From positions 1,798,660 through 1,862,659 of the forward strand of contig RPFO01000022.1 in assembly GCA_009746045.1 (NCBI GenBank): DNA of 64,000 bases, given 5' to 3'. The notes beneath the pieces were generated by a model. It did not search any database. It was not told the DNA's origin and saw nothing but the letters and a program-made list of their open reading frames with translations. The position numbers and the translations under genes are program-made. Positions 5,401-58,029 of this stretch are shown here, piece after piece. The stretch comes from Mesostigma viride. Lineage: Eukaryota; Streptophyta; Mesostigmatophyceae; Mesostigmatales; Mesostigmataceae. Numbering within the stretch: position 1 is the first letter of the stretch; every line of letters begins with the position of its first letter.

Positions 5401-8400
5401 CAGTGTAAGACACCTGTAATAAGACCAGTACCAGTGTAAGACACCTGTAATAAGACCAGTGCCAGTGTAAGACACCTGTAATAAGACCAGTGCCAGTGTA
5501 AGACACATGTGATAAAACCAGTGCCCCTTTTTAAAAGTTCCAGTGCCTCCTGTAGTAAGACTTGACAATGGAAGACATCCTTGTCCCTTGCTGCATCAGC
5601 ATTGTCTGCTGTACCATGACGTGCCGTGGTAATCGTCATGCTTCATGGGTTTGATCCCCCTCATCCCTGCTATCCGTCCGCATCCCTCCTTATCCGTACC
5701 CACCGTCAACCATCGGCGGCCCAACGCAGGAGTCCAAGCGGGCTCTCGGGTCGGCCTCCGCCGGAGCGCTGCCCCCCAAGAACTGCTGCATCGCGGTGGC
5801 GGGGGTTTGCGAGAACGGGATCTGCAACATGACCAACCTGGGTAGGGGAATAGGACCAACCTGGGTAGGGGAATAGGACCAACCTGGGTAGGGGAATAGG
5901 ACTGACCTGGGTAGGGGAATAGGACTGACCTGGGTAGGGGAATAGGACCAACCTGGGTTGGGGAATAGGACCAACCTGGGTAGGGGACTAGGACCAACCT
6001 GGGCTGGGGAATATGACTGACCTGGGTAGGGGAATAGGACCAACCTGGGTTGGGGACTAGGACCAACCTGGGCTGGGGAATATGACTGACCTGGGTAGGG
6101 GAATAGGACCGACCTGGGTAGGGGAATAGGACCGACCTAGGTACGAGAACTACGTGGGGGCATCGTGCAGCAACGTGACCAACATAGGTAAGGAAATAGG
6201 CATGACCAGCCTAGATAGACAGGAACTTGACCAACGTAGATCGGGGTATTGTGCAGCAACATTACCAACCTGCGTAGGGCCGTAGGGGGACAGGCATGAC
6301 CAGCCTAGATAGGCAGGACCTCGACGAGATTTCATTTGGGGGGTAGATCGACTGATACTGCACCATGATGACAATGCTAGGCCATGGGCGTGGTGCAGCA
6401 ACATGCCCAAACGAGCCCCCCCCACCAAGGCCCTGCTGCCTCCTTGAATGCACTACACTACATAGTAGATGTTAGTATCCGCCTAGTGTTCTTATTGTCA
6501 AGGCTTTGTGGTGATCTATGGGATCCTATTCTCTTCTTTTGTTGACACTGTTCATTTCTGCTGGCGACCGGCAACCGCCACACAAAGAATCCCGTCTAGC
6601 GTCCATGCTTTCTTGCTAGTTTTTCTTGCGGGCAGTTTGTACCAGTGGTTCTTGCTGTCAGTACTTACTATTTTTTCTTGCGGGATTCTTGTGGGCACCC
6701 AGGCTGGGTGGTGAGCGAGGCGGAGCTCGAGGACACCTTCGGCATCGCCCAGGTGACCATCATCAACGACTTTGAGGCGGTCGGGTACGGCGTCGCGGCC
6801 GTGGGCCCTGAGGACAAGGTCATCATCAACGACGTCCCCGTGGTGGAGGGGTGCCCCGCCATCTGCGTCGGGCCGGGCACGGGTCTGGGCGAGGCTCTGA
6901 TGACGTGGGATGATGACAGGGGCCGCTACAAGGTGTGCGGGCGGCTTGTGTTTCCGCATGGCGATATGGATTGTATGTCGACAGAGTTGTAAATGTTCGG
7001 CGCAGTGCAGTACTGATTGATTAAATCCAGTGCCCGTTGATGGGGTGACCTGGCGGGGTAGAGATGGCATGGCACGGACACGGTCATCAGTTCTGCAGCA
7101 CCAGTAAGATCCCCCCATAAAACCCCTCACCCCCCCTAAACACCTGCATCCTATACCCCATCCTGTACCCCCATATCATAATCCATCCTATACTCGTCCA
7201 TTCCCTCCTTTGCAATACCCTTATCCTATACCCCGTCCCGTACCCCCATATCATTATCCATCCTATACTCGTCCATCCCCTCCTTTGCAATAACCTTATC
7301 CTATACCCCATCCTGTACCCCCATATCATTATCCATCCTATACTCGTCCATCCCCTCCTTTGCAATACCCTTATCCTATACCCCATCCCGTACCCCCATA
7401 TCATAATCCATCCTATACTCGTCCACCCCTCCTTTGCAATACCCTTATCCTATACCCCATCCCATACCCCCATATCATAATCCATCCTATACTCGTCCAT
7501 CCCCTCCTTTGCAATACCCTTACCGTATAATGCACCCCCAAATCTCATTCGCGGGGCCCATATTTCAGCCATCCTCCTATGGCAAATCCATCCATATCCC
7601 TACAAGCAAAGCCATCCATTCTCACTATGATCACAAAGCAACCCATCCTCCCCCGCCTGTCCACCTGCCTGCCCGCCTGGGTCCCCCCCCCCCCCCCAAC
7701 ACCATTCTCCAAAGAGCAAGACCACAATCCCCCTACTGCATCCCCCCTATAACAAACCAACCCAACCTCCCCCAAAAAACATCTGCCAGGTGTGGCCCTC
7801 GGAGGGCGGCCACGTTGACTTTGGCCCCCGCGGCGACCTCCAGCGCGAGCTCCAGGCATACGTCGAGCATGAGATGGGCAACTGCGAGCTGGAGTACCTC
7901 GCCTGCGGCTCTGGCCTCCAGCGCATCTACCGCTTCTTCCGCGACCGCGCGGGCAAGGGCGGCCCTGACCTGGCCGCGCCCGACATCAGCAAGGGCGCCG
8001 CGGCAGGGGACCCCATCTGTAATGACGCGGTCAACATGTTCCTGGCGATTCTGGCGGCCGAGGCGGGCAACCTGGGTCTCAAGTGCCTCGCGCAGGGAGG
8101 TGGGTGGGGGCTGGACGAGGGGAGGCTGGATCGGTTAAGGCAGGTGGTGGGTGAGGGGAGGCTGGTGGTGGGTGACAAAGAGAGTAGCCGGAAGGGTAGT
8201 AATTAGAGAGACTGCAACTGGAGAGGTGAAGGATGGATGCCTGCTTGCGGGAGGGGCAATGAGTGAAGTAAAATTTCCTGGTGTTTCACAGCTGGGCCAT
8301 TTGGCCCCATCGCTTGTGCGTCGGGCATCTATGACATGTATGCATCCATGTTTACTCTACCATCAAATCGTCTACCATGAAAGGTGTATTTGAGGCGGCA

Positions 8401-10660: not shown

Positions 10661-10669
10661 ATTCCGTCT

Positions 10670-11633: not shown

Positions 11634-12070
11634 TTAAAAGTATAATTACTTACAGCAGAGTGAAATCACTCAAACCAAAGCAAACGCCCAGCTATAAACC
11701 TATATATATTCCTGGAGGAGTTTGGGGCCATGGGGCCCCTGACCTCCGCCTTCTTCAAGGAGTGTTGCCGGCTCCGGGAGGACCGGCTGGACCTGGAGGG
11801 CCAGCGGGCCCCATGGTCGGCGCGGACCTGGACGTCATATTGGCGTCAGCGCTTGTCGGTGGCGCTGACTCGGGCCATGGCTGACATCATGCTCCGCCGT
11901 ACGCGGGCTGATTTTGCGGTGCAGCAGGGCTATTAGGTTCCTCCCGTTAGGCGTTTCCATTGGTCTTATCGTAGTATAGAGCTTTGACATGGCTCTGTAT
12001 ATAGGTTTATAGCTGGGCGTTTGCTTTGGTTTGAGTGATTTCACTCTGCTGTAAGTAATTATATTTTTAA
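11634..12070. mobile_element. Head-to-head pair of truncated non-LTR retrotransposon 3' ends
   Basis: 11709-12070 (plus) is virtually identical to the last 360 bp of the element at 13681-14674, including the coding end ending GCAGCAGGGCTATTAG. 11634-11706 is an inverted copy of only the terminal 73 bp. Both 3' ends therefore point outward, like terminal inverted repeats. A 9-bp ATATATATT flanks both sides (11627-11635 and 12072-12080). The low divergence suggests recent insertion. Confidence 0.8.
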
Positions 12071-14674: not shown

Positions 14675-14690
14675 TATATGTTCAGTCTAC

Positions 14691-22210: not shown

Positions 22211-25200
22211 ATGACGAACCTAGGGCAGCCGGGGATGCCCGCCATTATTGGTGGGCTCTCTTTACCCCCACCTACCTCAATCGGTCAGTTTGCTCAGCTG
22301 ACACCCACTGCGGTAAAACTGTCGGTCTCTAGGGGATCATGCAGCCTTGGAACCATGTCCTGCCGAGCTACGTCTCTGCTTGCTACGCTTGGTTATCGCC
22401 GACGGGTAGTCACACCTGCCGCTGACGGTCGTCGACACCTCGGATTGGGAGAGTTTCTTGGGAATTCCCTTATCCCCATCGGTTCGTCCTCTGATAGACT
22501 CTCCCTCAGCAAAGCCCCAGCCCGCCACAAAGTACTCTGCCTCAGCGGGCCACGCCCGCTGCCTGGGCGGGCGCGCGAGGTACCCGACGAGGCGGATGCT
22601 GCAGACGATGGCGACATGAGGGGCAGCAATGGCTCCTCCTCCTCCGCGGCAATGCTGGAAGAGAATTTGCAGAAGGTCACGACGCAGGCGTGCCGGCTGT
22701 ACATTGCGGCGGTGAAAGAAACTTGCCAGAAGCTGCTCGCTTTGGAGAAGAGCCTCAGCGCCAAGTTCAACAAGATTGACCGTGTGCTGGCATACGCCAC
22801 TGAGCCCAGGGACATGGAGGAAGGTATGGGGGGCTCGGTGAAAGCCCTGGGCCTCTCTGACCCCCCCATGGGCCTCAAGTCCGTCATGGATTTCCTGACC
22901 AGGATCCAGGTGAGCTGGAGCATGAGCACTGCACTACCTTAGTTCTAGTAGCTTTAAGACAAACCACCGTTGATAGCATGCATGGTGTGGTAGCTGCCTG
23001 CAGGCAAAGTCTTTTCATAGCCTGCAGGCAGACATTCACTTCACTCGAATGCTTTATAGCCTAACAAAATGGTACGGGTGCATCGGAGCATATGTGGTGG
23101 CTGGCGTACCTGGTGCGTGGGCATGTTTAGGACTAGGGGCTGCCCTTGAAAAGGCTAGTTGCAGCCCACCCCTGTCTGTTGGGTGGTCCATCCATGTCGG
23201 CCAATGAAAGGTAAATAATTAGCACTGGTTTTCCTTGTTTGTCAGCACGTGGCATCACCTCGGTGTCTCATAGTCAAGTTGATCAACCGGTGACGGCTTG
23301 GTATAGCGCAGTGGGGAGAGAAGAGGAGGTGGAGGCTGGTGCCACCACATCACCATCATCAACCCTGTTCCTTTCAGGATGCCCTCCCCCACTGCACCGC
23401 CCCCCTCCCCAGCTCTCTCTTCCTGCATGCTCCCCACGCACTCTCTTGCAAGCATATACATTTTTAAAACCTCGTGCCCACCTAGCTCGCACCCCTGCAT
23501 GCTGCACTCCCATTGTCCATTCATTTTCCGTGTGTCACCCTCTGTGTGACTTCTGGGCGGTGCCTTCATCCCTGCACTGCTTTAGCGTGGCCTGGCCTTT
23601 TGGATGTTTAAGACCCGAATAACATGGTTGGAGAGGGAAGAGTGCAGGGGAGCATTCGCGGATATTGCATGCCCTCGTTTTCTTGTCACTGCCCCCAGGT
23701 CCCCACCCGTGCACGTTTCTCCCATGCAGTCCCCGCAAACAACCATAGACCCAACATCCTGCCACAGTTTTCTCTCCCTCTCCTCCCCCTACCCCCTGTC
23801 TCTCTCTGCCAACCATCTGATCACACCGCCACGCCCCCCCCACGCCCCCACCCCCTCCACCAGACGGGCCTGACAATGATCTCCCGCCTGATGACCACGG
23901 TGGAGGAGGAGCGGCGTCAGGTGGCGCTCTCCCGCGACTACATGTCGACGGCGGCGACCACCTCGGCGGACTCGCTCCAGCGGCTGCTTGCCCTCTCGTT
24001 GGACGGCCTCCTCCCCTATGGCGAGAAGCTGGTGGAGGGACACGACGCGACCACCGCAATTATGGTGCACCAGACTGCGGCTTTGGGGTCATGGATGGAG
24101 AAGGCGGAGGAGCGGGCGATTGCGCAGCTCAAGGCAGAGTCCGAGTACAGCAAGGTGGGTGGGATGGGGTACGAGTACAGCAAGGTGGGTGGGATGGGGT
24201 ACGAGTACAGCAAGGTGGGTGGCGGGTGGGGATTGTTTAATTTAGCAAACCTCAAATAAAATAAGAAATAAGTGGAGAAAGTGCTGCACAAGTGATAGTA
24301 CAGCAATGTGGGGGGGCAAGATGGTAGGGCTTTTTTTGTAATAACAGTTATGTTTTTCTGTAATAGCAGTTTTTCTGTAATAACAGTTATTGCGAGGTTA
24401 TCGTTTGCGTGGGGAGCTGCTCCGAGTGTATTGAGGGAAGGAAAGGGGGGGGGGGGCGGCCGGGGGTCCATGTGTGTGTGAGGGGGAAAAGGGGGATGTG
24501 GGGATCTCCCATAGGCCTCTGGGGTATGTATTTTGGTGATACAATGGATCCATGAGACAAGCAGCGCAGGCTATACCCATGTTAGATTGTAGCTGTACTA
24601 TATCCGTGTTAGATTGTAGCTGTACCCGAAGAAAATTTCATGGGCGTTGCTGCACGTGGTTTATCATGCAGGCGGAGGTGCACGTGCGTGAGCTGGAGGT
24701 GGTGATGCGGACGCAAGAAGCGGGCCAGGCCAGCGAGGCCACGCGGCGCGCGCTGGAGGAGGCGGAGGCCTCCGCCGACCATCTCGCGGAGGCGGCGTCC
24801 AACCTGGAGGCGCAGGTGGCCGAGGCGGAGCAGGTGAGAGGCGTGCTGTATGCGGTGCGGGGGCGTGGGGAGCAGGTGCAAGGGAGGGATGGTTACCAAG
24901 CTATGGGTTGGGCTGGTGGGTGCTGCATGCGGAGCAGGTCGGACGCACGCACACAACACAGCACCCCCTGGGTTTATTGTGAGGTCCGTCACAGCCCGTG
25001 CGACCACCTGCCATGGTACCCGCTATGCACGCAGAAAACCACCAGCATGGAGCCCGGGCAACTGGAACCACTATTGCTAGCACCGGCCACGCATCGTCCC
25101 CGATACGTGCATGTCATTGCTTATAGGTGCAGTTGGCGTGCTGAGTCACTGGTGCATGCCTGTGTAAAATCGAATCCCCGCCGTGCGAAGCTATAGCTCC

Positions 25201-28200
25201 CTCATTGTCTTATCAATCCCCTGCTCGGCACTGTGCCTCTCTTTCCTGCTCCCCCCCGCATTTGTCTTCCACACTCGGCCCTGTGCCTCTCTGTCCTGCT
25301 CGCCCCCACATTTGTCTTCCACGCTCGGCCATGTGCCTCTCTTTCCTGCTCGCCCCCGCATTTGTATTCCACACTCGGCCCTGTGCCTCTCTGTCCTGCT
25401 CGCCCCCGCATTTATCTTCCACGCTTGGCTCTGTGCCTTCCTGCCGCTCACACGGTTTCCCTGCTCACCCTCGCGCCGCCACCTGGCGTACACCCGCAGG
25501 AGATCATGCGTGTGACCACCGAGCTGGAAGACACGACCGTGCTGGGTGAGCGGCTGGCTGCGGACGTGGCGGAGTTTGAGCGCTACAAGAGCGCGGTGGA
25601 CAGCGGGGGCATGATGGAGACGATGTGGGTGTCGGCCGAGGAGGCAGGCAGCAAGCTGGCACTCGCGCTGGGCGAGGTGGAGTACGTGATGGCGCGCTTT
25701 GAGGCACTGCAGGCGCACGCGGCTGTGCTGGAGTCATCGCTCATGACGCAGATCAAAGGTGGGTGTGTTGTTGAAAAGCAGGTTGGTACTTTATTGTTGT
25801 CGCTCGAGTGGTCGCTCATGACGCAGATCAAAGGTGGGTTTTGTACCGTAACGGTTGGTGCAGAGGCAGGTCCATTTCCTGGCGTTGCTTGCTTGAGTCC
25901 ACGACTTCGTTCCTCGAGCGCCTCCAGCGGCGTGCCGCTCTCCCTTGCCGCATGCCCTTTGCCTGACATCATGGTGCGGCAGCCTTGTCCTACACACATG
26001 TCGCGTGGGAAGCCGGCATCGTGTGGAAACAAGTAGTAGTCCTTGCTCTGTACTCATCCCTTTGATGGGTATTGCTACTGCATCCCTGGTGTGGGCATTA
26101 CCCGTCGCGTGCGCCAGAGGAGGAGGGGGACTCGTCGATGCTGGAGGACTCGGGCGCGCGCATCATCGAGGAGGTGAAGGACATCCAGGCCAGCTTCGCC
26201 ATGCAGTTGGACGCGCTCAAGAGCGCGCAGGAGTGCCTCAACCGCCATGTGCTCGAGGTGGGGGGGTGGGCAGGTGTGCAGGCGGGCAGGCAGGTGGGCA
26301 GGCGGGCGGGCGGGCGGGCGGGCGGGCGGGCGGGCGGGCGGGCGGGCGGGCAGGCGGGCTGGCCGCACACACGTGGTGTCTGTCGGTGGAGCATAGAAGA
26401 TCCTGGGCAGCGACCCCGTTTTGTTTGCTAGCTCCGCCAGTAAGGCCACTCCCCGGCAGGTTGAGGCACGGGATCCCAAGTCAACTTTTAAGTCTCGAAA
26501 CCTTATCTGACAACTTCAAACTGGCACTGTGCCTCGCTCCCCGCCATCTGACTCTGCGCCGCTGTCACATTTCCATAGCAGCCCCCCACCTTCCCAAGCC
26601 CGCCTTCCTAAGCCCGCCTTATACCCCATCTTCCCCACCAGTGTGCACCTTTTACCCTGCTCCTTCCACATGACACCTGACACAACCGCTCTCCCCCTGC
26701 CACTTCCTCCCCTTCCCCCCCCCCACTTAATTGTTCGCCTCTTCGTCCCCCTTCCTGCTTCATCGCCTGCTTGTTCGCTCCCCCCGCTCGATTGTTAGCC
26801 TCTTCTTGACCCCCTGCTCAAATTTTTTATTTCTTCTCCCCTCCCCCCGCTGTATTGTGTGCCTCTTCTCCCCCCCCCCCCTCCCCCAGTGCGCCGAGGG
26901 CCTCAAGGTCGTCCTTGCCCACACGTCCAACGTGGCCCTCTTCAAGAAGCGTCTGCTTGCCTCCTTCCCCGACCTGCAGCGCATACAGCAGCTCGCGTCA
27001 CAGTACCCACCACTGCCACCCGGCACCGAGCTCGGCTCCTCCACCGCCGCCCTCAAGGCCGCCCCCTCCGGAGGCTTCAGCAGCGGCGGAAGCAGTAGCG
27101 AAACCATGACCGGCGCCCGCGGCGGCGGCGGCTGGTCGCCATCCATGCTGTCTTCTTCTGGCGCCGGCACGCGCAGCCCCTCGGGCAGCGAGCTGGCGCG
27201 GGAGCTGGCGGACCTCAAGTCCATGGTCAGCGAGGCAGGGTTCGTGACGGGTGGCAGCAGCAGCGACAGCGACTTGCCGCTAAGCAATTCGCAACCCAGT
27301 GGCGGCACGGCGGGGCGGGAGCGGAAGGACCGGTTCGCGGCGCTCCGCGATGAGAGCGAGGGCGTCAGCGCAGGCGGGAGGGGTTACAGTGACGAGAGGG
27401 AGTCGTCCCAGGGGGGCTGGGAGGGGGGCGGGTATGACCGTCGGCGCGAGCAGGAGGAAGGGATGATGATGGGAGAAGAACAGGACGAGGATGCGGCGAT
27501 TATCTCCGCGGAGCAGCGGCTGCTAGCATTACAAGACATCATTCGGCGCGCGCAGAGCGAGAGCGGGATTGAGAGGGGTGAGGGTGGAGACAGCGGGGAG
27601 GGGCGGAACGAGGCGGGGGGTGATCCGTACGCGAGGGGGGCGCAGGGGAGGGGCGGCGAGGAGTATGGGGAGGGGGATGGGGAGGACGAGGGCGAGGGCG
27701 CGCTGGATCTGTCGAACCTGCGCGACATTGTGTTGGACGATGGGGTAGAGGAGGACGTGCGCACGATGGAGGAGCAGGTGCTGATGCTGGGGGAGGAGGC
27801 GGCCGAGCTGAGGCACCTGCAGCAGGTGTGTGATTTTGTTTGATAACAACGGTGGTCTTTTAAATGCACGCTTTTTGCCCCCTTCTCTACATGCATGGCA
27901 ACAGCAATAACTAATAATAATAGTAATAATAATAATATAATTCTGCCCATCTTTCTTGTCCTCGTCCCTTTCCGCCTCTTTGATGTCGGCTTTATATGAT
28001 AGTACACAAGTCATCTTCATGATAAGCAAACAACTGCAATGATAACATAATTGTAACCAAAATAACTTCATGATCCTCAGTGAACTGACCCTTATAATTG
28101 CCCATCTGCCCTGCATGCCACCCTCTCCCCCGGCTCCGCTGTTCTCCGCCACCCCTTCCCCCACCCCCCCTCCGTGTCCCCCAGCTCCAAAAGGAGGCGG

Positions 28201-34800: not shown

Positions 34801-37800
34801 CACGCCTTAAGTTGGGTTCGAGGGTTTCTTGGGGTCAACCCAACTTAAGGCGTGAACCCAACTTAAGCCGTTAAGTTACCATAACTTGCGAGCCCCAGCC
34901 CTGCTGAAGGACTTCAGGGTGTCTTTTGATAGCTCTCGTCAAGGCCGATCGAACTGCACTGCAGTAAAGAATTCACCATCAAGGTCGTATTTCGGGTCGT
35001 AACTTGGATGCAAGTCCTCAAACCGGCTGTGGGCAGGTGAAGAACCCCACCGTGCTAGCCAAAACTTCGTGTGCTGCATAGGGCATGCGCGTTCTATGCG
35101 CGGTAATCGTGGCTATTTACCCTCTAGCCTCGTCTTCCCTAGAATCGACGCAAACAGTAATCCCGTCCATGGCCACTGTCACCAGGACTGGTCTAATAAC
35201 GGTGAACGGTTTGCACGTGAATGCCAACAACGTTGCTGATCCCGGCGAAATATGTCGCCATGTTAGAGAGCGCAGCAACCTTTACGACAAGAAGGCCATA
35301 GCCGTTCAAAAGGCTGACCACAGCCATATTGGCAGGGTGGCCAAACGGCAGGCCGCTGCCTTGAGCCCGTTCATAGACAACGGCGTCATGAAAGTTGCAG
35401 AGGTTGTCGCTACACACGACCATGAGGGCTATCGGTACCAAATGTTCAGATTTACTTTCATCATCACGGATGCCTTAGACCTGCCCTTTTCCAGGAGTTG
35501 GATGATGTCATAGCGTTGCTGGTTTGACCGCTTGCCCTTGCCACCTGCCTTCTCTCGCCTGTGGTGTCTCGTTTCTGCTTTTTGCTGGACGCTGCCCCGC
35601 TGCCCGAAAACAGTGCGTTCCATTGATTTGGCCTTATCAGTTTTGTCGGCCATTGTGTCGCATTTATGATGGGTTCTAATGTGACGAACGCGTTTGAACA
35701 GCAAGCCGTTTGCCCATGTATATAATACAATGATGACTGATTTCAGCGCCCAACTGACCAAGATCTGCAGTGAACTTTATAGATGCTTGGTGTTGGATGG
35801 CGCGGAAACCCTGTCGGACCACCGGCGCGGGAAAAAACTCAAAACCCTCAAGTCGCGGCAGTATAAAATCAGTGCCACACCGCGCTAGAAGCCCCTTCAC
35901 GCCTTAAGTTGGGTTTTTACTAGTACAGCCATCAGCCTTAAGTTGGGTTCGCCATGCAGCCAACTGCGACCCAACTTAAGGCGTGAACCCAACTTAAGCC
36001 AACCCAACTTAAGGCGTGAATGCCTGTACTTAAAGGCATGCAGTACTACCCGTCGCGTGCCAACCACCACGCTCTGGCCCACCTGGTCCGGAAGCATGCG
36101 GCGCTTTACCCTGACCTTTCTCTCTGTCCCCACAATGGACCCCCCACTGCCCCTCCCCCCCCCTCTTGCCAGCTGACGGCGATGCTGAATGAGCAGGCGG
36201 CTGCGCGGGCCTCTAGCGCGGACAGCGACGCCCGCCTGCGCAGCCGCGAGGCGTCCATCACCCGCCTGGAGGCCGAGCTGTCAACCATGGGCACCCAGTT
36301 CGCCGCCTTGAAGAAGGCGCTCGCCGCCCAGGAAGGGGAGCTGATGGCGCTGGCAGAGAAGTCGGAGGCGGCGGCCGCTGAGCACGCGGGCGCGCTGCGT
36401 GCGGTGCGCGCCGAGGTGGCGGAGGCGGAGCGGGTGGCGCGGGAGAAAGAGGAGGAGGCGCGGTACGCGACCGCGGCGCTGCAGGACGCGGTGGCGGACG
36501 CCAGGGGCAAGGAACGCGAGAAGGTGGTGATGGCGGAGCGCGTGCGGGCGGCCGAGGAGGCCAGCCTTGCGCTGCAGCAGCAGCTGAACGAGGTGAGGGG
36601 GGAGGGGGCGAGATGAACGAGGTGGTGGCGGTGGTGGTGTGGGAGGGTGATGTGAGGGAGAGGTGGTGATTGAGTGCTTGGGGGCATGGCGGCAGTAGTT
36701 ATTTGTGAAGCAAAAAGCTGCTGAACATGAAGTAGTATGTGGCTGAATATGAGATATGAATATGTGGCCGAGGTCTGGTGTGGTGGACATTTTCACGTTT
36801 GCTCAGATTTCGCGACGTTAATTGTGCCTTCTGGGTGCGGCTGGTTTCTAACTACCCATGCCGGCGCTAACGTTGCTCGAAGTGCCATGCCCAGTACCCA
36901 CCCCACTTCGCTCTAGCGCTTGGCAATGATATTTCTTCATGCAAGTTGTTTGCGTCATTCTAAACGGGTCGTATAACGTGGGGTTAGACAAAGGCAGAAT
37001 CGAGCCTGTATTGGCCGGCCCTTTGCGACTTCAGGTTTGTGCTGGTTGTCTACTTTATATATTCTATCATTCTCTTCTTTCTTGCCTATTTTCCTTGCCA
37101 GGCGGATGCACGGGCAGCCACTGGTGGTGATGTCATCTTCATTGTCCACGTTGCTATCGTTTCTACCCCTGCTTCCTATCGTTTCTACCCTTATTTGCTA
37201 TCCTTGCTATCCTTATTTGTTATCCTCGCTGTTGTTGCTTGCTATCCTTGCCAACCTTACTTGCCACCCTTACTTGCTATCCTTACTTGCTATCATTGCT
37301 ATCCTTACTTGCTATCCTTGCTATCCTTATTTGCTATCCTTGCCACCCTTACTTGCTGTCCTTACTTGCTATCATTGCTACCCTTATTTGCTATCGTTGC
37401 TATCCTTATTTGCTATCCTTGCCACCCTTACTTGCTGTCCTTGCTATCCTTGCTTGCTATCGTTGCTACCCTTATTTGCTATCGTTTCTATCCTTACTTT
37501 CTATTCTTGCTATCCTTACTCGCTATCCTTGCTTTTCACTTCTTATCCCCAGGCGGAGACGCGCGCGCAGTCGGCGGCGGACGAGGCGCGCCTGCTGGAG
37601 ACCCGCATCGCCTCCCTCTCCGAAACCCTCGAGCGCACGCAGCTTCTCTCGGCGGGGGCCGTCGATGAGGTGGCCTCTCGCCTGCAGGTGCGCGAACAAG
37701 AGCTCATGGCCACCGTGGCCTCCCTCAAGGCCTCCCTGGCCGCAAAGGAGGAAGAAGCTGCCGCGGCCGCCACGCGCGAGGCGGACCAGGCTATGCAGTC

Positions 37801-40164: not shown

Positions 40165-43100
40165 CTAAGCAACCACACAAACATCGAGCTCTTCATTGCA
40201 AACTTCCCCATATCGGCACATCAGCAGGTCCGCCTCGTTTATACACTTGCCATCACGGCACTTGTCCAGCGTGCAAAACTGGCCATCGTTGCAATCCGTG
40301 TCCAGCAAGCACGATGCCGCGGCTGGCAGTTGCAAGAAAACATCAAAGCGCAAGGCAATTGAAAGAGTCAGGCAGGACGGTGTTAAGAGGGAACAGGCAA
40401 GCAAATAGGCAAATTCTTGACAAGCATATGGTAGTAAGATCATAGTTCTACGATCAAGACATGGTTGCATTCCATTGGTGCGGTTCCATTGCCCAAGTCT
40501 TCCAGATCTCAGGCCTGCACTGGCCATCTCCGTGACAATACCAAAGTTTTCACGCCAAAACGCAGCACGCTTGCCGGCCAAGAAACCACAGGCGACCGCG
40601 TCGCAAGGCAGTGCCTGTACATACTACCTCACCTGCGCCTATGCATACTATGTATGCTCACCTGCGCCTATACATACTATACATGCTCACCTGCGCCTGT
40701 ACTTACTATACATGCTCACCTGCGCCTATACATACTATATATGCTCACCTGCGCCTGTACTTACTATATTGTACAGTGTGCGCTCACCTGCGCCTGTACA
40801 TACTATGTATGCTCACCTGCGCCTGCACACACTATACATGCTCACCTGCGCAGCCAGGGAAGCGCAACGCGGCGATGTACGTGGCCGACTTGGTGCCCTT
40901 CGTCTCCCAGGGACCCATGAAGTAGAACGTGCAGCCATCCATGGCGTCCACGGTCATGGAGCTGCGCCCGCCAAAGGTGGCCGTGGTGGACGACGCGGTG
41001 CCGTTGACCAGGGACGTCTCGGGGCTTGGCAGGGTCCCTGGTGGTGCGTGCGCGGTCCTGCCGGCGTAGTACAGGCTGGGGTAGACCTCCAAGTCCGCAT
41101 CCACTTTGGAGTAGCCCAGTACCATGTTGTTGGAGCGGTCGAGTGCCACACTTGGCAGCCATGCGTGCCCGCCCTGCGGGGAGACCCTGCCTTCCTGGCG
41201 CAGCGTCCAGGGTCCCGGGGTGCCCGACTGGACTGGCCGGCGCAGCTCCACCCACATGACCGCACCCTGGGAACCAGGAATACACACACACACACACGCC
41301 ATCCAATTCCGTCATGCACACACGCACAGGGCGTGCTATCACACATTCGTGAGAACGTAGCATGCAGTGGTCAGACTTCAGCTTCGAGGTGAATTGCAAC
41401 AACTTGTGGGGACACGCGAGAAATTTTTTATTGTGTGCGTCCTTTCAAGAAGGAAAACGGAGACAGGCGATTTGCCTAGAAAACAAACAGGATAGCGCGG
41501 TACAACGCCCTTGCAGACAACGTACCCAGAAATGTAGCCATAGATAGATAGAGCACGGGGACACATACATTATATTGGTTGTCTCTTTGGCCTCACCCAC
41601 CTTATCATTGCCACCGTCCACGGAGAAGCTAGCCACAAGCGCGTCGTGTCCTGCGTAGCTCCGCAGCAGCGCCTTGGAGACCATCCCGCGCTGGTACGAG
41701 TTGAGCAGCACCGACGACCTTGGCTGCGCAAAGCAGGGCACGTCCTCGGTGCTGCTGCACAGGCTGATGCTGAACTCGCTCACCCTCTCGTTGGCCACCC
41801 GCGTCAGGCTCGCGGACGCCGCGTTCTGGAAACTGGGACATAGCTCCCACAGCTCCAAGTAGTCCCCCCCCGCGTCCGGTGCACTCACACCCAGCTCATC
41901 GTCTACTGGGCGGAGGAACAGGCCGCACTGCATGCCCCCTCTGGGTGCCCCGCCCAGGGTGGCGGGGATGAGCCCCTGCAGGCCGAGCCCGGGCAGTGCG
42001 GGCGGGAGCAGGCGTGCCATTGGGCGCGGGGGCAGCGAGGCGATGAGGCGGGCGCGGTCGATGGCATAAACCGCGGGTGGGTCCTCGCTGGTGCCCAGGT
42101 AGTAGGCGTCCGGCATGATGGCGATGGCAAAGTTGCCGGGGTCCCCTGGGAGGGCGATTGTGTGCCCGCGGTAGAGCAGCCCGTAGGGGATGGGGGAGAG
42201 CGAGAGCAGCAGGCACAAAAAGTGGGCGCCGCTCGCGTTGCGCGCGGCCTCCATGATGAGCCAGCGGTCGGCCATGTGGTCGTATGCGGTGTAGGGCGTG
42301 TTGAGGAAGGGCCCCGTCCGGCAGACAGTGTTGGAGCGGTGGAACTGGGTCAAAAAGGACTGCTTGATTTGCTTCCAGGGACTCTTGGTGTACACGCGGT
42401 AGAGGGCCTTGTTAAAGTTGGTCTTGGTGATCGTCACGGCGTAGTCGGGGCCAACGGCGATGACGGGGCCTGAGGGCAGGCCGCTGAGGCCACGTTCGCT
42501 GAAGCTCAGGAGGGGGGCATCCAGCGCGCCGCCAGCTGTCATGCGGGGAGACATGGGGGAGTATTTCGGGAGGTATAGCGGGCATGGAGGTATTGCAAGA
42601 CATTCCAAAAGTTCATACACTACTGCACCTTGCAAGACTCCATGGACATTCCCGATGGCATACACTCCCCAAAGATACAGGACCAGAGTGCCGGGCTGGG
42701 ATTAATACTTCTAGATTTTCGATTTTCTTGATGGGCCAATCTTGTCTTCTGTCGCACGCAGCCTGACAAACAACTGGCTTTGACACGGCCCGATAAAAGA
42801 CCACAGGCCGTATGTTGCTTCTCAACGGTCGTTAACATGATTAAGTGATGTCCGTCGCACAGGTGCTCGCTGCCTGCTGGGTAAGGATCCGGCTGTGGAT
42901 ACTGCCGTGCAGCATGGCCCCATCGACAGACAAATAGGTTCCAGTCTTCTTTCCACTGCTGTCTGGTTGAGGGCTACCCCCCCCCCTTGTTCAGGTTTGC
43001 GTGACAGGGACACAAGTGCTAGGACGATAAAGGGCGTTCATCAACGAACACTGTATGTCAGGGTCGGTATCGAACACCTTCCAGGTTTCGGCTCATTAGT

Positions 43101-46484: not shown

Positions 46485-49400
46485 ATGTCGGATAAGAACG
46501 TCGCGGCGCCGCCTACTGGCGATGGCGGCGAGAAGCAAAGCAGCCATGACGAGCGTGCAGCAGCAGGGCCAGCCAATGACGTGGACTCGGTGGCTCACAA
46601 GGTGGGATGCCGTTTATTGTTTCGTGCTGGGAAGGGGTCCTGTTTCAGTCTGGCCTACACGACAATCAATCTATGCTCTGAGGGTACTGTCGCTGCAAGC
46701 CTGGCACTACTTTAGGATGCTGTCATGCAGATGTTTGCTCGGCTATTTGTAATGGCGTTCTCTTGTCTCGAGTTTTTGCCTTCATCCCGTATTATTGGCG
46801 CCTGATCCTTTATTTTGCCCCCCTCCCCCTCCCCCGCCCCCTCATCCCTCAATCTGGCCCGAATCGGCCCGTAGACGGTGCTTGGTTTTGATATCGACGC
46901 TGTTAGTGTCATATATTACACCTCATTTTGTCTTGTGACGTTGGGCCATGTTGTCGGGACCACGCGTTTGCCACATCAGCTATCCAAGGCTAACCTCGGA
47001 GCCCTCGTTGCCCGTGGGGCGGAGAGGAAGCGGCATCAATTTTGGGAGACGCAGCCAGTGGCTCAGTTCACGGACGACAAGGTGCGGATGACAGGTGCTG
47101 GTTGCGGATGACAGTAGTTGGTCGCGGATGACAGCTGTTGGTTATGGTTTACGGTTGTTGGTGACGGACGACATGTATTGACGCGGTGAATGCTTCATAT
47201 GCTACATTATTGGAAGCCGTAGAGTGTTGCATGCGGAGAAGGGGTCGCGTTTGCGAGGCCTGGTATTCGCTGGCTGATACTTTCACAGCCTCTTGTCTGA
47301 TAGATGCGTTGCACCGGTCACGGTGAATGCCCCTATGGAAGTGAAACTCATGCCCTGTCTCGCCCCACTCCTTCCTCCTGGAAGCGTATAGTGGTGGTTG
47401 GAGTCACAAGTCAAAAAGTAAATGCACAGAACCCAGCTAGCAACCTAGTAGGCAGTTGTTCTCACACAGCTAGTGGGGAAAGAACGGTTACGCACACGCG
47501 GACAACTGAGAATGGTGTTGCAGACGCGCCACACACTTGGCGTGCCGTCCCCAGCACAGTATCCTGGCAGGGTTTGGGCTTCTTGCGACGGTACTACGTT
47601 TGCATTTTGGCGTTGTGTATATTACACTATGCAGTATGATGTTATTCTGTACACTACTACACTAGGGAAAACCGCTTCTGTTTATCCTGGCAACGTCGAT
47701 GCATGCCTCATGTGGAAACAGGGGCATGTTAAAGGTCCCTATCGCCCCTAGCCACACTTTTTGTCGTGGGGTTGAAGCAAGGAAATTGTCCACCCCATAC
47801 ACCATGCCATGCCACACCACAGTGGCCACACTTCCAACCCCATCGCTTCAGCTTGCGCCCTTGGCACTAACCCCTATTGCTGGGAGAAGTTTCGTTGGCT
47901 TGGCAGATTTTGTTGGCTGGGCATGTTTTGTTGGCTGTCTGTTGCCTCTTCGCTCAGCTACACACACACACACACACACACGCCGCCCCCCCCCATCCAC
48001 CCTACCCCAAACCCCTCCACCCCACCCCACCCCACCCACACAGGAGGAGGGCCTTCCCGAGGGCCCCATTGAGCCCCCCCAGCGCGTGGAGGATGTGCGG
48101 CAAGAGCCCTACCCGCTGCCGCCTTCGTTTGACTGGTGTGTGTGCGACATGGGGGACCCCGGTGTCCTGGAGGAGGTGTACAGCCTGCTGACCAACAACT
48201 ATGTGGAGGACGACGACAACATGTTCCGCTTCGACTACTCGGCCGCGTTCATCATCTGGGCGCTGCAGCCGCACGGGTGAGTGGGATATAGGGGGCTGGA
48301 ATAGCTTGGGTGAGTGGGATATGGGGGCTGCAATAGCATGGGTGAGTGGGATATAGGGGGCTGCAATAGCATGGGTGAGTGGGATATAGGGGGCTGCAAT
48401 AGCATGGGTGAGTGGGATATAGGGGGCTGCAATAGCATGGGTGAGTGGGATATGGGGGCTGCAATAGCATGGGTGAGTGGGATATAGGGGGCTGCAATAG
48501 CTTGGGTGAGTGGGATATGGGGGCTGCAATAGCATGGGTGAGTGGGATATAGGGGGCTGCAATAGCATGGGTGAGTGGGATATAGGGGGCTGCAATAGCA
48601 TGGGTGAGTGGGATATAGGGCTCAGCACGCGCACGCTTGTGTACATTGTGGGGGCGCTGCACCCACAGAGGTGTGTGGCATGTTGGCCTAGTGCTTGCAC
48701 TCATTGGTAGAAAGGAATAGCAGGGTTACTCGTAGATGCAAGCATCAGCTGCCAGGACATGCCATGACGTGTCATGCACCGATCATATAGACCTCTGATA
48801 CCTATGTTACCGCAGTGGTCAAAATCACTTTGCGTCTAATTGTTTGCGAATCGACCTCGCAAACTGCTATTAATGGGCTTCATTTTGGGTCGCAAAGTTC
48901 AAATGTTACCGCGCCGCGCCTGCGCCGCGCCGCACAGCCCCAAGCCTAGCTATTTTAATCAGAGCTACCCAATGGATCAATCAAGTTTCTCAGTTGGGTA
49001 GTTGGGTTACATCGAAAGGGGGCCAAGGGATATGAAGTCGGTGAGACCCAAGCCACTGACCACAAACAAGTCGATCGGCTCGCAAACCTAAAACTTTGCC
49101 TTCGTTTTGGGTCGCAAACTATAAATTTCAAGTTGTTTTGGGGTCGCAAAGTAATTATTCGCAAAGTGCTTCTGACCACTATGGTAGTTATCATAGGTGA
49201 TAGGTATCCTATGTACCATCGGTAGACAAGTGTCTTACGGGATTGCGCATGGTGCAGGGTCATAAAAAGTATGTTCTTGCTGTCTGAAAAGTGCTCACTC
49301 CTTGTGTTGCTATCATGCAACAATGACATGCTCCAAGCATAGGCATTTGTTTCATTGTTTTTAAAAAATCAACCATGTCGCCGACAGTGTGCACCATTCT

Positions 49401-52400
49401 CCTTTCCATATGTGTTGGCTGCTGTCCCAAAATACTGACAACTTCATCTCTGCCCCTGAGGCGCGACCACGGCATTCCTGTCCCCTTGGCCTGTGCTTGC
49501 GCTGTCCCATCCGCGGTCATGCTGTGCCTTGGGCGGTGCCATCATGCGCCAATGCCACCCATGTCATGCCATCGCCACTGCCACCCATGGCATGCCGTCC
49601 TGTGCCATCTCCTGCCTTGGTGCTGGTTCTGCCGTGCCGTGCCATTCCTCGCATCGAGTCATTCAGTTGTGGCGGTGGCGTCACGCGCTGAGCCATGCCA
49701 TGCCCTGCCGTCCTGCATGGTTGGGGTGTGCCCTCCTGCGTGCTTGGGGTGTGCCGTCTGGCAGCTACTACCCTGACTGGCACATCGGCGTGCGCGTCAA
49801 GGCCACCAACAAGCTGGTTGCGCTCATCACGGGTGTGCCTGCTAGCATCCGCGTGGACGGCAACCTCGTGCGGATGGCAGAGATCAATTTCCTCTGCGTG
49901 CACAAGAAGCTGCGCTCCAAGAGACTCGCGCCCGTGCTCATCCGCGAGGTATGCCCGTTCATGCAACAGTAATAATGTACAGTATAATGGTATAATGTAT
50001 TCATTATTTGCTGTTATCTTGTTATGGTTGTAGCTCATGCGCGAGGTATGGCCGTTCATGCAACAGTAATAATGTACAGTATAATGTATTCATTATTTGC
50101 TGTTATCTTGTTATGGTTGTAGCTCATGCGCGAGGTATGGTCGTTCATGCAACAGTAATAATGTACAGTATAATGTATTCATTATTTGCTGTTATCTTGT
50201 TATGGTTGTAGCTCATGCGCGAGGTATGGCCGTTCATGCAACAGTAATAATGTACAGTATAATGTATTCATTATTTGCTGTTATCTTGTTATGGTTGTAG
50301 CTCATGCGCGAGGTATGGCCGTTCATGCAACAGTAATAATGTACAGTATAATGTATTCATTATTTGCTGTTATCTTGTTATGGTTGTAGCTCATGCGCGA
50401 GGTATGGCCGTTCATGCAACAGTAATAATGTACAGTATAATGTATTCATTATTTGCTGTTATCTTGTTATGGTTGTAGCTCATGCGCGAGGTATGGCCGT
50501 TCATGCAACAGTAATAATGTACAGTATAATGTATTCATTATTTGCTGTTATCTTGTTATGGTTGTAGCTCATGCGCGAGGTATGGCCGTGGGTATTGTTG
50601 CGTATACGTATTCAGAAGTTGCATCTGATGAATTCCGTGGCTCGAGCTCATTTGCGAAGTATTTTCCCTCATGCATCCTTCAAGGATGCCTCTCATTGAA
50701 AGGTGCGGCCCAGCCGCGCCCCCATTTCCTCCCGTGCCGCATCCCTGCGGTCATGTCTGCCCGCCTAACTCCTCATCTGAACCGCCCATGTGCTTCTCCG
50801 CCCGTGGTGGCTTCTCACGTCGCCACTTGTCATGTGCACGGCTTCTCGCGCCCAGATCACCCGCCGCGTGCACCTGCGCGACATCTGGCAGGCGTCCTAC
50901 ACCGCCGGCGTGGTGCTGCCGCGACCCATCACTAGCTGCAGGTGGGGACCCTAAAGTTAGCCTATGATTTCTCTTTGTGAGTTCAGTCGATAATATTGAT
51001 GCCTGACGTTGGAAGACAGCCAGTTCAAAGAGTTGTCGCCTTGCAAAGAAAAATTACCCTGGCAGGACAAGCCCCTCTGCTCAAAACTTTCGCGCAAGAG
51101 TGTGCACAGCTAGCCAAGGCTGGCACAGGAGGTGTGAAGTGGTGCGTATTGCAGTTATGATCACTACTGATGTGGGACTTTTGTGCAAGCGGCACAAGGC
51201 TTTTGCACAATATTTATCATGACTATTGCCTCTCTGGTCAGCTTGAAACTGGGTGCATGGGCATGAATGGGCATGAGTAGAAGGAAACTGCTGATTGCCG
51301 CGAAGGCAATGGCTTGCAGAAGCCAGTCACACTTCTGCCAGCCACACTTCTCTGTATAGGGTTTAAGATTCTACTTGCCATCCATGCTTCCTGTATAGGG
51401 TTTAGGATATCTTTGTAGGCCAGAGTCTCTTAGTCATTGACTAGCTACCGTGTGTGAATGTGGGTGCCCGTTGACGCCTGCCCTTTGGTCATGTGGTACT
51501 GCCTGGACACACCAGAAAAGCACTCGTGCATGGATTGTTAGTGGTGGTCCATCTAACCTACCCTACAATGGGTTTGCTTCCATGGAGGCCGGGGGTGCTT
51601 TGATGGAGTTCCTATTGCTTCCCTATCGCTTCCACTCTGCTCCAAGGATCGCCTTACATCTCTCGTCCATGGTTGGTGGTCTGTCTCCCGCATCGCTCAC
51701 CCATGGCCTGTGGTCTAGCTCCCGCATCGCTCACCCATGGCCTGTGGTCTAGCTCCCGCATCGCTCACCCATGGCCTGTGGTCTAGCTCCCGCATCGCTC
51801 ACCCATGGCCTGTGGTCTAGCTCCCGCATCGCTCACCCATGGCCTGTGGTCTAGCTCCCGCATCGCTCGTTTATGGCCTGTGGTCTAGCTCCCGCATCGC
51901 TCGAATATGGTCACATTTTTCCCCCACTTGCCAGTACTCACCTTTGTGCGTGTAGTCTCAGCTGCATAGCTTGCGCCCTGGTCTTTGTTATTTTTCGCGG
52001 AATAACGTCGCGGCTTACCTACTTTTATGTCGATGCTCATCCGTGGCGTGTCCGCGCCTGGCTGCCTGCCTCTCCCCCTTCCCCATGTGCAGGTACTGGC
52101 ATCGCTCGCTGCAGCCCAAGAAGCTGATCGACGTGGGCTTCTCGCACCTTGCGGTGAGACGCGATGGATCCGAGCACAGGGGGGGGGGGGGGGGGGAGTA
52201 GGCGGCGGTGGTGGTGGTGGTGAGTATCCAAGGGGGGATGTTTTGATACAAGCAAAGCGGGGTGGGGTGGGTGGGGGGGTTGGGTGGGGGGGTAGCGTAA
52301 TTTACGCTCAATGGTAAGGGCGTATTTAAGCATGTGATGCAGACAATCTTTGTTGTTAACTTTTGCGTTTTGATACTAATATTAGGTTGATTGGTGAGTA

Positions 52401-55022: not shown

Positions 55023-55072
<50 letters not shown>

Positions 55073-58029
55073 CACTCACCACTCACCACTCACCACCACG
55101 CCCCACCCCATCCCTCTCCCTTCCCCAGCCGCGCATGACCCTCAGCCGCACAGTTAAGCTCTACAAGCTGCCGGACGCGCCCGCCACCCCCGGCTTCCGC
55201 AAGATGCGCCCCGAAGATGTGCCACAGGTGGCCGCGCTGCTGACCGAGTACCTGCTGCGCTTCCGCCTTGCGCCGGTGCTCTCTGAGGACGAGGTGGCGC
55301 GCCAGCTGCTGCCGCGCGAGGACGTGGTCGACTGCTACGTGGTGGAGAACCTGGAGACCAAGCGCGTGACGGACTTCAGCAGCTTCTACACGCTGCCAAG
55401 CACGATCATCGGCAACGACACGTACAAGGCGATCAAGGCCGCCTACTCGTTCTATAACGTGGCCAAGGCGACGCCGCTCACGACGGTACGAGTGGGAGGG
55501 GAAGGGGGGGGGGGGAGGGAAAAAAGAGGTGCCCCATGTGTATGTATACAGTCTATGAACAGGTGATTGTTGCGATGTGGTCGATTGATGTGCTCTGCAT
55601 AGCTGTGCTTTCTTGGACCACACGGTGCGTCGGTGCCCGTGAACTGTCGTGTACCAACATCCGGCAGTTCATGACTGGGCGGGGTGGCCTTGGCGCGACT
55701 GCCATCATTGTCATATACTCACTAATCACTAGACTCTCGGCGCGGTCCATCCCTGTCTGCCTTTTCGCACAGCGAGTATGCGCTCTTTGCTGTTTTACTG
55801 TCAGAATTGTTCTCTCTTTGCTGTAAATGCTTTGCGTTTGGTATCTTTACTTCACATACATTTCCTGTTCGCTGTTTCCACCGCTAAGTACTCTTTCGCT
55901 CTGTCAATGCTCCATATACTCTCTCTCCCCCCCCCCCCATCACAGCTGATGAACGACACGCTGATCGTGGCCAAGAATGCGGGCTATGACGTCTTCAATG
56001 CGCTGGATGTGATGGACAATGTCGAGTTCCTGAAGGTGTGTAAACCTTTCCTAAAGCAGGGCCATCAAAGTGTGTGGCTATCTTGTTTGCATTGGTTTAT
56101 GCACTGATGCCATGCAAAACGTAGATGTGGAGTTCCTCGGTGGGCGGCGCAGATCGGTATAATTGTACTTAGTGGCGTCACTTGAAGCAGGGCCATCGAG
56201 TGTGTCGCTGTTTGGTTGGTGCTAGGTCTTGTGTATTAGATATGTTGAACAAGGCGGCGTTCCTCAAGGTGATTAGTACTTGTTGTCTCTAGAGCTTGCC
56301 ATCTCTAGAGCGAGCGGCATCTAGCCCTCGCAGTATCCAGAGCTTGCTGTATTGAGAGCTTGCCGCCTCTGGAGCTTGCAGTATTGAGAGCTTGGCGCAT
56401 CTAGAGCTTGCAGTATTGAGACCTTGCCGCGTCTAGAGCTTGCAGTATTGAGAGCTTGCCGCGTCTAGAGCTTGCAGTATTGAGAGCTTGCCGCGTCTAG
56501 AGTAACACACGTAGCTTTGCTGCCATCTGGATTACGTTGGCGCTGTTGCTTTAGACTTGTTGTGTGATTGGCGTGGCGGCCAGTTCCCTCCAGATAAACG
56601 CTTGTCGGTGTCAATAGTGCTGTCACGGTGCGTCATCCAGTGGCCGGCGTCAATTAAGTAGTCGGTTTGTTTGCGCCGGGTGTTCTGCATATGGTACGAT
56701 GGACAACATGCAGTCCAGCGAGGTGAGGTTGGTCAATAGGTGAGGGTGAGGGTGGCCAATAGGTGAGGGTGGTCATCCTGCAAGGTGAGGGTGGTCATCC
56801 AGCAAGGTGAGGGAATAGGTGAGGGTGAGGGTGGTCAATAGGTGAGGGTGAGGGTGAGGGTGGTCAGTGACAATGTAATCTCTGAGCCACTATGGAAATC
56901 TTAGCCGCTGGACACTCGTGGCCGCTAGAAAGATACAAACGGATCACGCGAGTTTGTTTTTGGCTAAACCGTCTAGGTCTCGCTCTGAACTGACTTGCCA
57001 GCCATAATTGAGGGTGATTCCTCGTGCTAAATGGGGTGTTTGTTTCCATCGAGGGTGATTCCTCGTGTTCAATGGCGGGAGAGCGATGGCAGCAGTGGTG
57101 CTTACAACTGGACACACCTGGCCGCTAGGAACACCTGCCCTGGTCACGCGAGATTGTTTTTAGCTAAGCCGTCTAGTTCTCGATGAGCGTTCCCCAGCCA
57201 TAATTTTTTATGCCCACGGCTACGCATATCGACCTCCATTCATTTCCATCATCCTGAACGACTCGACACATGCGGATAAGATAACAGCAGGTCGAGCTAC
57301 CATGGTCCAGATTCTTCCAGATTTCTGGCCTGCGCTGGTTGTCTCTTTGATGATTTCAACGAACATGGCTGCACGATATTTTTCCGTTCATTTCCGTCAT
57401 CCTGAACGACTCGACAAACGCGGATAAGACAATGGCAGGCTCGAGCTACCATGCTCCGGATTCTGGCCTGGGCTGGTTGTCTCATGGATATCCACTGCGC
57501 AGCACCCAAAGCATAGCAATAATCCGCCGAGCTGTCTGCTGTGCCATCTTTTGTACGGGTGTGATGTTATTGACGATGGCAGTCCCTCGGAACAGGCCTC
57601 TGTATTGTACGGTAGTCGGGCGGTGAGAAAGAGGCATGCTGTTGTTTGAGTAGGAAGCCCCCAAACGGGATGGAGGGGGGCTCCCTGGTGCAAAGTACCT
57701 GTGGGGTGGACGGTCTGTGGACTTGAGTGCCACAAGAACAGGGGAAACAAGCAAGTGTTTGTAGATTCTTGGAGGGTTATCAAGCAAGAGATGTGTTATG
57801 AGGAGGTCGATATTCATGGAGGGCTGAAGACCTGGAGTCCAGAGATGTTTGTGACGTGGGAATGACGTCTATTTTATGAGTGTTTCGGTGGCTATTCCTG
57901 TTCTTTTCTATTTGATATTCACAGGAACTCAAGTTTGGCATTGGAGACGGCCACCTGCAGTACTACTTGTACAACTACAGGGTGGCAAAGCCCATGACTC
58001 CGCAGGATGTGGGCCTGGTGCTTTTGTAA
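46485..58029 (+). CDS. NMT: Glycylpeptide N-tetradecanoyltransferase (N-myristoyltransferase)
   Basis: Transfers myristate from myristoyl-CoA to N-terminal glycine of proteins in the cytosol. Exons: 46485-46601, 46980-47081, 48044-48276, 49765-49948, 50856-50941, 52093-52153, 55129-55485, 55946-56035, 57925-58029 (TAA). Phases agree throughout, giving 444 residues against about 430 in Arabidopsis. Motifs: HQFWETQPV (residues ~60-68), [14 protein letters not shown] (~135-148), [18 protein letters not shown] (~189-206, the NMT signature with the CoA/catalytic core), [30 protein letters not shown] and C-terminal VGLVLL, whose terminal carboxylate acts as catalytic base in this family. The N-terminus is charged and low-complexity, as usual. 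Between exons 4 and 5 lie seven in-frame 12-nt potential micro-exons. The start is the ATG at 46485; nothing better is in frame. Confidence 0.95.
47076..47170 (+). repeat. Degenerate donor-proximal repeats in NMT intron 2
   Basis: After the donor GTGCGG, a word of about 20 bp (GCGGATGACAG plus TGTTGGT) recurs about four times, with GACGGACGACA echoing the exon end. Confidence 0.65.
48267..48625 (+). repeat. Donor-anchored 31-33-bp repeat at NMT exon 3
   Basis: The exon ends at 48276 and the donor is GTGAGTGGGATATAGGGGGC. Eleven copies of GGGTGAGTGGGATAT follow to about 48620, each unit giving a strong consensus donor GTGAGT. Spacers are CTGCAATAGCATG or TAGCTTG. Confidence 0.95.
48808..49187. 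mobile_element. MITE-like element in NMT intron 3
   Basis: About 50-bp imperfect terminal inverted repeats: the left arm contains AGTGGTCAAAATCACTTTGC; the right arm reads as complement AGTGGTCAGAAGCACTTTGC. Subterminal TCGCAAA words occur at least six times. There is no ORF. Target duplication is unclear because the flanks (ACCTATG and CATAGGT) are themselves inverted. Confidence 0.65.
49937..50579 (+). repeat. 89-bp tandem exon-intron units: seven potential micro-exons in NMT
   Basis: After exon 4 (ending CTCATCCGCGAG at 49948) come seven copies of CTCATGCGCGAG at 50034, 50123, 50212, 50301, 50390, 50479 and 50568. Each is preceded by GGTTGTAG and followed by GTATGG. The spacing is exactly 89 bp, so each 77-bp spacer is a complete GT-AG mini-intron. 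Each copy encodes Leu-Met-Arg-Glu in frame, against Leu-Ile-Arg-Glu in exon 4. Confidence 0.95.
51687..51905. repeat. 34-bp minisatellite in an NMT intron
   Basis: About 6.5 units beginning CTCACCCATGGCCTGTGGTC. It is not related to the flanking exon ends. Confidence 0.95.
52660..53060. repeat. Two copies of a tRNA-related SINE-like segment
   Basis: 52668-52725 and 53005-53060 share ATCCGGTA(C/T)GGTACCAAA and following bases. The second copy has TGTTCGAATCC immediately before, resembling a Pol III B box, and the match ends at a CCA. No intact tRNA fold is present. Low-resolution call. Confidence 0.45.
53296..54110 (+). repeat. TGGG and 12-bp GCCGGTGGGTGG satellite in NMT intron
   Basis: (TGGG)n to about 53505, then about 42 near-perfect 12-bp GCCGGTGGGTGG units to about 54012 with a single GTCGG variant, then TGGG repeats again. 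G-runs are on the transcribed-RNA strand. Confidence 0.97.
54111..54688 (+). repeat. G-rich homopurine tract in NMT intron
   Basis: About 580 bp of G runs interrupted by A or AA, with only a few C, directly following the TGGG satellite. It is likely prone to assembly errors. Confidence 0.97.
55024..55070. repeat. (CA)n dinucleotide tract
   Basis: About 23 CA units about 60 bp before the NMT 3' splice site at 55129. A shorter (CA)12 lies at 47959-47982 before exon 3. Confidence 0.97.
56030..56275 (+). repeat. Diverged exon-end copies after NMT exon 8
   Basis: The exon end GTCGAGTTCCTGAAG/GTGTGT is echoed by GTGGAGTTCCTCGGTGGGC (56126) and GGCGTTCCTCAAG/GTGATT (56255), and AAGCAGGGCCATC is repeated. 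Confidence 0.55.
56310..56505. repeat. About 32-bp minisatellite in the last NMT intron
   Basis: About six units of TCTAGAGCTTGCAGTATTGA followed by GAGCTTGCCGCG. Confidence 0.93.
56715..56870. repeat. GGTGAGGGTGGTCAATA repeats
   Basis: Irregular tandem GGTGAG/GGTGGTCA words, many of them donor-like GGTGAGGG, in the last NMT intron. Confidence 0.85.
56880..57490 (+). repeat. Dispersed repeat family A copies in NMT's last intron
   Basis: Overlapping homologous segments: 56890-57000, 57065-57345 and 57390-57490 share GGCCGCTAG, CACGCGAG, CATCATCCTGAACGACTC and end with GATTTCTGGCCTGCGCTGGT. Another copy lies at 58929-59215. No ORF was seen. Confidence 0.7.

Follow-up and report, generated by a model that had tools for sequence, protein, structure and literature searches.

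The locus described here raises the question of why minisatellites in the introns of several genes should contain the end of the preceding exon together with its 5' splice site (donor), and whether the exon-intron junction is itself the place where such arrays arise. The window, that is the whole stretch of DNA analysed, comprises 64,000 nt of Mesostigma viride (assembly GCA_009746045.1, contig RPFO01000022.1, positions 1,798,660 to 1,862,659 of the forward strand). Gene models based on open frames and GT-AG joins give four intron-containing genes, with 32 donors, 32 acceptors and 32 introns (31,066 nt together), encoding a bacterial-type glucokinase that matches Pfam PF02685, a coiled-coil protein, a secreted-type protein on the minus strand, whose three longest exons have no Pfam match, and an N-myristoyltransferase (NMT). 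The NMT model aligns with human NMT1 (3.7e-149) without gaps at the joins HG/YY, LIRE/ITRR and FLK/ELK, and the glucokinase model with E. coli glucokinase (1.4e-41) without gaps at EK/IY and NLG/W; because of these gap-free joins, the array-bearing donors 2811, 5841, 48276, 49948 and 56035 are supported by homology as exon ends. For the coiled-coil gene, which is modelled on open frames and GT-AG joins, each in-frame copy is a candidate for the true exon end. The 32 introns also show a strand asymmetry, with 38% G and 16% C in their first 50 nt and 19% G and 42% C in their last 50 nt.

The sequence-only reading had named seven clear cases of arrays that copy the donor, and in all of them the copies do include both the GT and the bases that end the exon. 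Arrays were called by Tandem Repeats Finder (TRF) with periods of 12 to 150, an entropy filter and the merging of overlapping rows, a procedure that is blind to splice sites. In the glucokinase gene, a 23-bp array of 13.6 units at 5831..6143 (+) is found both by TRF and as junction-aligned copies at the homology-backed donor 5841; its unit includes 11 exon nt and the GT, and decayed copies with up to 18 exon nt continue to about 6310. Three clear cases belong to the coiled-coil gene, all on the plus strand and all in frame and open: donor 24154, with a 30-bp unit repeated 2.7 times at 24142..24222 and carrying 13 exon nt; donor 25758, with two copies 75 nt apart at 25727..25840 and 32 exon nt; and donor 31228, with a 27-bp unit repeated 2.7 times at 31217..31290 and 12 exon nt. 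The first and the third of these are seen by TRF and by junction alignment, as is a second series at 31394..31486 (+), which also copies donor 31228 and whose first member carries about 32 exon nt before continuing as a 28-bp array of its own. On the minus strand, the secreted-type protein donor 40846 has 29-bp units at 40628..40851 (TRF and junction alignment); this is the thinnest of the clear cases, with only 6 exon nt, and four other introns outscore its own in one test. The NMT gene has two plus-strand arrays, the one at donor 48276 (48257..48620; TRF, homology-backed join) with about 11 copies of 32-33 bp, a diverged exon portion of about 19 nt and an extra copy at +394, and the one at donor 49948 (49936..50589; TRF, junction alignment) with a copy at +97 and then one every 89 nt up to +631, seven in all, each having 12-13 exon nt with an AG in front, and another copy at +710; the join LIRE/ITRR of this last donor is backed by NMT1 homology. 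The TRF array itself crosses the donor in five of the seven cases; at 49948 TRF has it begin 41 nt downstream of the junction, with an initial lag of 97 and later ones of 89, and for the two copies at 25758 TRF lists no array. Between 49990 and 50589 every 89-bp unit includes, in this order, an AG, 12 exon-like nt (LMRE) and a GT, a mini-exon layout repeated seven times, and the junction alignments give a hint that an AG often directly precedes the exon copy at 49948, 5841 and 40846.

The weaker cases proposed in the same reading fared unevenly, with five supported, all on the plus strand. Four of these stand in both the ranking and the ungapped test described below and in junction alignment: donor 2811 of the glucokinase gene (2798..3130, decayed copies at +50, +94, +285 and +308), donors 33660 (33650..33830, decayed copies at +98 and +142) and 36592 (36581..36640, a copy at +29) of the coiled-coil gene, and NMT donor 56035 (56006..56275, a decayed copy at +233 with about 30 exon nt). 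The copies at NMT donor 47081 (47070..47173) are found by gapped alignment only, and a TRF array begins there 2 nt into the intron; donors 8099 and 43710 dropped out, their own introns being outscored by 10 and 16 others, respectively. Among the donors outside that list, the coiled-coil donor 24833 (24824..24945, +) also scores, with a decayed copy at +104 that is recovered by own-intron ranking, the ungapped test and junction alignment, and, more doubtfully, so does 28400. In the intron after 56035, about 690 nt from the junction, short arrays at 56722-56862 carry AGGTGAGG donor-like motifs.

Arrays had been said to begin exactly at the junction and to have the breakpoint position in common; in fact, their starts are in the exon, about 6 to 32 nt before its end, and this extent differs by donor (2 to 32 nt in single copies). 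The donor-crossing units range from 23 to about 110 nt, carry sequence variants and have an average exon share of 0.34, as read by hand from the junction alignments of 12 donors. At three donors there are copies with clearly different exon extents: at 31228 the 27-nt series has 12 exon nt and another copy about 32, at 5841 the series has 11 and others up to 18, and at 48276 the array is diverged and the +394 copy agrees with the exon where the array disagrees. These differences within a donor are read as separate duplication events.

Such copies have to be compared with what repeat-rich introns offer by chance. A first lag test (at least 17/24) was passed by 9/32 donors and 0/32 acceptors, and 28.8% of 4172 intron positions scored equally high, which is why swapped-intron, positional and array-edge tests were used. 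In an ungapped test, segments of 14 exon and 6 intron nt were sought at a match of at least 14/20 in their own and in swapped introns; 58 junction copies were present in own introns, at 13 of the 32 donors, versus 2.3 expected from swapped ones, and the corresponding values for acceptors were 4 and 1.35. Since swapped introns give this background and each array is local, a single repeat family common to the introns of the window was rejected, and the claim that the arrays do not form one transposon family holds within the window. In a ranking test, segments of 20 exon nt with 8 or 2 intron nt, or of 15 exon nt alone, were scored in their own intron and in the 31 others; the own intron ranked first for 14, 13 and 12 of 32 donors with these three segments, where 1 would be expected, and for 3, 2 and 2 of 32 acceptors. 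For donors, z is 12.8 (20+8) and 10.1 (20+2), the observed sum being matched by 0 of 20,000 permutations, whereas for acceptors p is 0.035 (20+8), 0.069 (20+2) and 0.37 (15 exon nt alone); the difference between 14/32 top-ranked donors and 3/32 acceptors has a Fisher p of 0.004. The top-ranked donors are spread over all four genes (2/7, 7/14, 1/3 and 3/8), and when the coiled-coil gene is left out the observed value is still reached by 0/5000 permutations. Upstream and inverted copies of donor junctions show no excess (p=0.56 and p=0.24, respectively) and these two modes of copying were rejected; the acceptor control of this direction and orientation test is weakly positive (p=0.013, 3/32 top). 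The donor-crossing copies are a genuine observation.

Whether the junction is special was examined by displacing the segment along the intron. The own intron ranks first for 0/32 segments at -40 from the donor, 2/32 at -20, 12/32 at -10 and 15/32 at the junction, for 11 to 15 of 32 between +10 and +60, and for 8 to 10 between +100 and +250; around acceptors, the values are 7 at -100, 5 at -20, 1 at -10, 3 at 0 and 2 at +10. In a matched scheme, the junction gives 12/32 and +60 likewise 12/32, and the difference between the junction and the pooled positions from +100 to +400 (35/137, drawn from the same 32 introns and hence not independent) is not significant (p=0.19). Array edges were compared for the 39 arrays lying in or over introns among the 52 that TRF keeps in the window, the edge distances being entered by hand from the TRF positions; few arrays stand behind each figure. 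Five of the 39 extend over a donor into 5 or more exon nt, versus 1.15 expected on placement within the same intron (p=0.004) or 0.74 on placement in any intron (p=0.0006), and none crosses an acceptor, versus 1.17 expected, which is not significant alone (P=0.30). Array starts do cluster: 12/39 lie within -32 to +64 of donors, versus 3.7 expected (p=0.0002, about threefold), or 11/38 versus 3.6 without the second TRF row of the 49948 array (p=0.0006); array ends near acceptors number 6, versus 3.7 expected (p=0.17). The notion of a distinct, junction-derived class thus stands only in part, and its separation from other intronic minisatellites is weak: array starts are enriched near donors, but deeper intron is duplicated nearly as often. 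The introns are duplication-rich throughout, somewhat more at their 5' end, and the special point is that duplication is not halted by the donor and is nearly halted by the acceptor.

The arrays do offer decoy donors, as the sequence-only reading had stated: GT is retained in 51/58 copies, and most are no stronger than the first, since the donor score relative to the real donor is equal in 25, weaker in 21 and higher in 5, with 7 copies lacking GT. Special constraint on the GT is not supported, because copies keep it (0.96 and 0.99 as means over donors) about as well as the adjoining exon bases (0.91 to 0.95) and the search was centred on the junction. Ten of the 13 donors were checked for the effect of splicing at the next copy, and at 7 of them this would break the frame or run into a stop; the three open in-frame cases are all in the coiled-coil gene, in which five donors were checked, and have units of 30, 75 and 27 nt.

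The explanation preferred here, with a probability of about 60%, is a general growth of intronic minisatellites, biased to the 5' side and able to cross donors because the first of several equal donors is used. Introns would keep gaining local head-to-tail duplications, presumably by slippage or unequal exchange, more often near their 5' ends, and several of these would expand to minisatellites. A duplication straddling the donor and including exon bases would survive if splicing keeps the first of several equal donors; the messenger would remain unchanged and the surplus copies of exon tail and donor would become intron, leaving the protein intact. Duplications straddling the acceptor would not be neutral, and selection against them may be the cause of their near absence. 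In a designed splicing library studied in another system, the first of two consensus 5' splice sites is predominantly used, the stronger one wins when the two are unequal, and for tandem 3' splice sites no preference by order was seen (PMC6783452). If this rule is valid here, both the asymmetry between donors and acceptors and the rarity of stronger copies would follow from it. The first donor is probably the one used in this organism as well, and the NMT1 and glucokinase alignments, in which the joins that bear arrays are free of insertions, were counted for this reading. Neutral tolerance alone does not account for the surplus of array starts close to donors, which requires duplication to be mildly biased to the 5' side; the polypyrimidine tract may contribute to the sparing of acceptors. 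Further points weigh against this explanation: the acceptor tests are marginally positive in some settings (p=0.035, 0.069 and 0.013), and the repeat enrichment reported in the available text of a published survey covers both intron ends rather than just the 5' one (PMC3887541).

The enrichment of array starts (12/39 vs 3.7) and the five donor-crossing arrays (vs 0.74 to 1.15) could also be taken to mean that the donor itself is a hotspot of breakage or slippage, by an R-loop, a nick or G-rich slippage at AGGT, and that the arrays are born there, and the clearly different exon extents at 31228, 5841 and 48276 would fit with repeated events at such a site. This is rather unlikely, considering that the junction does not significantly exceed the deeper intron (p=0.19) and that the exon breakpoints vary between donors, from about 6 to 32 nt; furthermore, the R-loop or G-rich trigger suggested earlier found no support, as the first 40 intron nt are equally rich in G in the 13 introns with copies and the 19 without (p=0.97), and G content was rejected as a trigger. 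Even less probable is that the arrays are functional, their extra donors serving as alternative exon ends or as docking sites for U1 snRNP. For human IFI6, the part of the source available reports that downstream repeat units serve as donors (PMC4526556), and three of the five coiled-coil donors checked have in-frame, open units; against this, later units would lose the frame or run into a stop at the remaining 7 of the 10 donors checked, and the exon bases beside the GT are nearly as well kept as the GT.

The preferred reading of 5'-biased growth has two further competitors, both of them very improbable. Tandem duplication of an exonic AGGT segment is an established route of intron gain in the excerpts available (PMC3443670, PMC4974935) and could in principle account for intron birth or sliding at these junctions; the link to this route drawn in the sequence-only reading was abandoned and the candidate rejected, since donors are no more similar to their own acceptor than to swapped ones (p=0.16 locally, 0.59 in register), and the introns with junction copies are 359 to 1889 nt long. 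An artefact of assembly or of gene modelling might be suspected in a repeat-rich window, the more so for the coiled-coil gene with its in-frame copies, but the units carry variants, the pattern recurs in four genes and the NMT and glucokinase joins match solved homologs without gaps.

A wider claim is tentative and more doubtful than the local explanation: throughout the genome, introns of this lineage may grow longer on the 5' side, each repeatedly taking up copies of the end of its exon and of its donor, in a niche opened by splicing in which the first donor wins, so that many genes would have several to more than 10 near-equal donors and use only the first. If true genome-wide, this would be a natural experiment on the choice of the spliceosome among near-identical 5' splice sites, a case in which a splicing rule shapes where repeats may grow, a way for introns to grow by taking in sequence from exon ends, and a pitfall in annotating genes.

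The window contains further features. At 34791-36028, an intron of the coiled-coil gene contains an element of some 1.24 kb that has terminal inverted repeats of 28 nt (96%), and the element's open frame 35082-35510 matches the HIRAN domain (PF08797, 6.1e-13). An intronless open frame on the minus strand, 19430-20623, corresponds to a hydroxyproline O-arabinosyltransferase (HPAT; PF23452, 3e-101), an enzyme indicative of the green lineage. Two copies of a repeated element, at 11720-12060 and 13665-14660, have in common a coding 3' end. The element, which we take to resemble the C-terminal part of a reverse-transcriptase-type protein, has no match in Pfam. Very long low-complexity arrays are located in introns or between genes, namely a C-rich one of 1.4 kb at 29541-30970, a G-rich one of 1.5 kb at 53197-54687, a CAATT array of 1.2 kb at 16894-18077 and a CCTC array of 0.5 kb at 3862-4349.

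Rfam at gathering thresholds gave no match, and no relatives of the arrays were seen in other genomes; genome contigs returned 8 pattern matches, none confirmed, and among viral contigs one search was without matches and two others returned 15 and 2 pattern matches, again none confirmed. Among the matches listed from the open-licence literature, none describes a recurrent class of donor-crossing minisatellites; as far as the available text of the sources extends, the single-gene case of IFI6, AGGT intron gain and the repeats of green algae near intron ends are already in print. The arrays described here have the features of ordinary intronic minisatellites, being head-to-tail copies with variants, private to their locus. 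The repeat unit of human IFI6 is 12 bp long. Like the IFI6 minisatellite of a 1995 report, whose downstream units are reported to serve as donors in a passage of PMC4526556 that cites it, the present arrays lie over the exon-intron junction and their units offer donors; unlike in that account, which concerns one gene, many donors of four genes are involved here, with differing and mostly frame-breaking units, and a frame-keeping unit of the IFI6 type is found, in frame and open, at 3 of the 10 donors checked. In the fission-yeast arrays of Zhu and Niu (2013), as described in a passage of PMC4974935, a 24-bp AGGT segment is duplicated several times and the intron extends across the copies; the AGGT-type segment with several copies is common to both systems, but there the segment is exonic and spanned by the intron, whereas in the present introns the acceptor stands apart and does not belong to the copies. 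A 2013 survey of plants and two green algae found, in the excerpt at hand, that tandem repeats become more frequent near both ends of introns, above all in the green algae (PMC3887541); the concentration of intronic repeats toward intron ends is similar, but that distribution is U-shaped, whereas the present one is on the donor side, and the excerpt makes no mention of units that copy the exon end and the donor. Finally, Introners, intron-linked repeats over-represented in aquatic eukaryotes, are elements copied into many genes according to the available part of the source (PMC9860276), unlike the present arrays, which within the window are private to their own intron, with 2.3 matches in swapped introns versus 58 in own ones.
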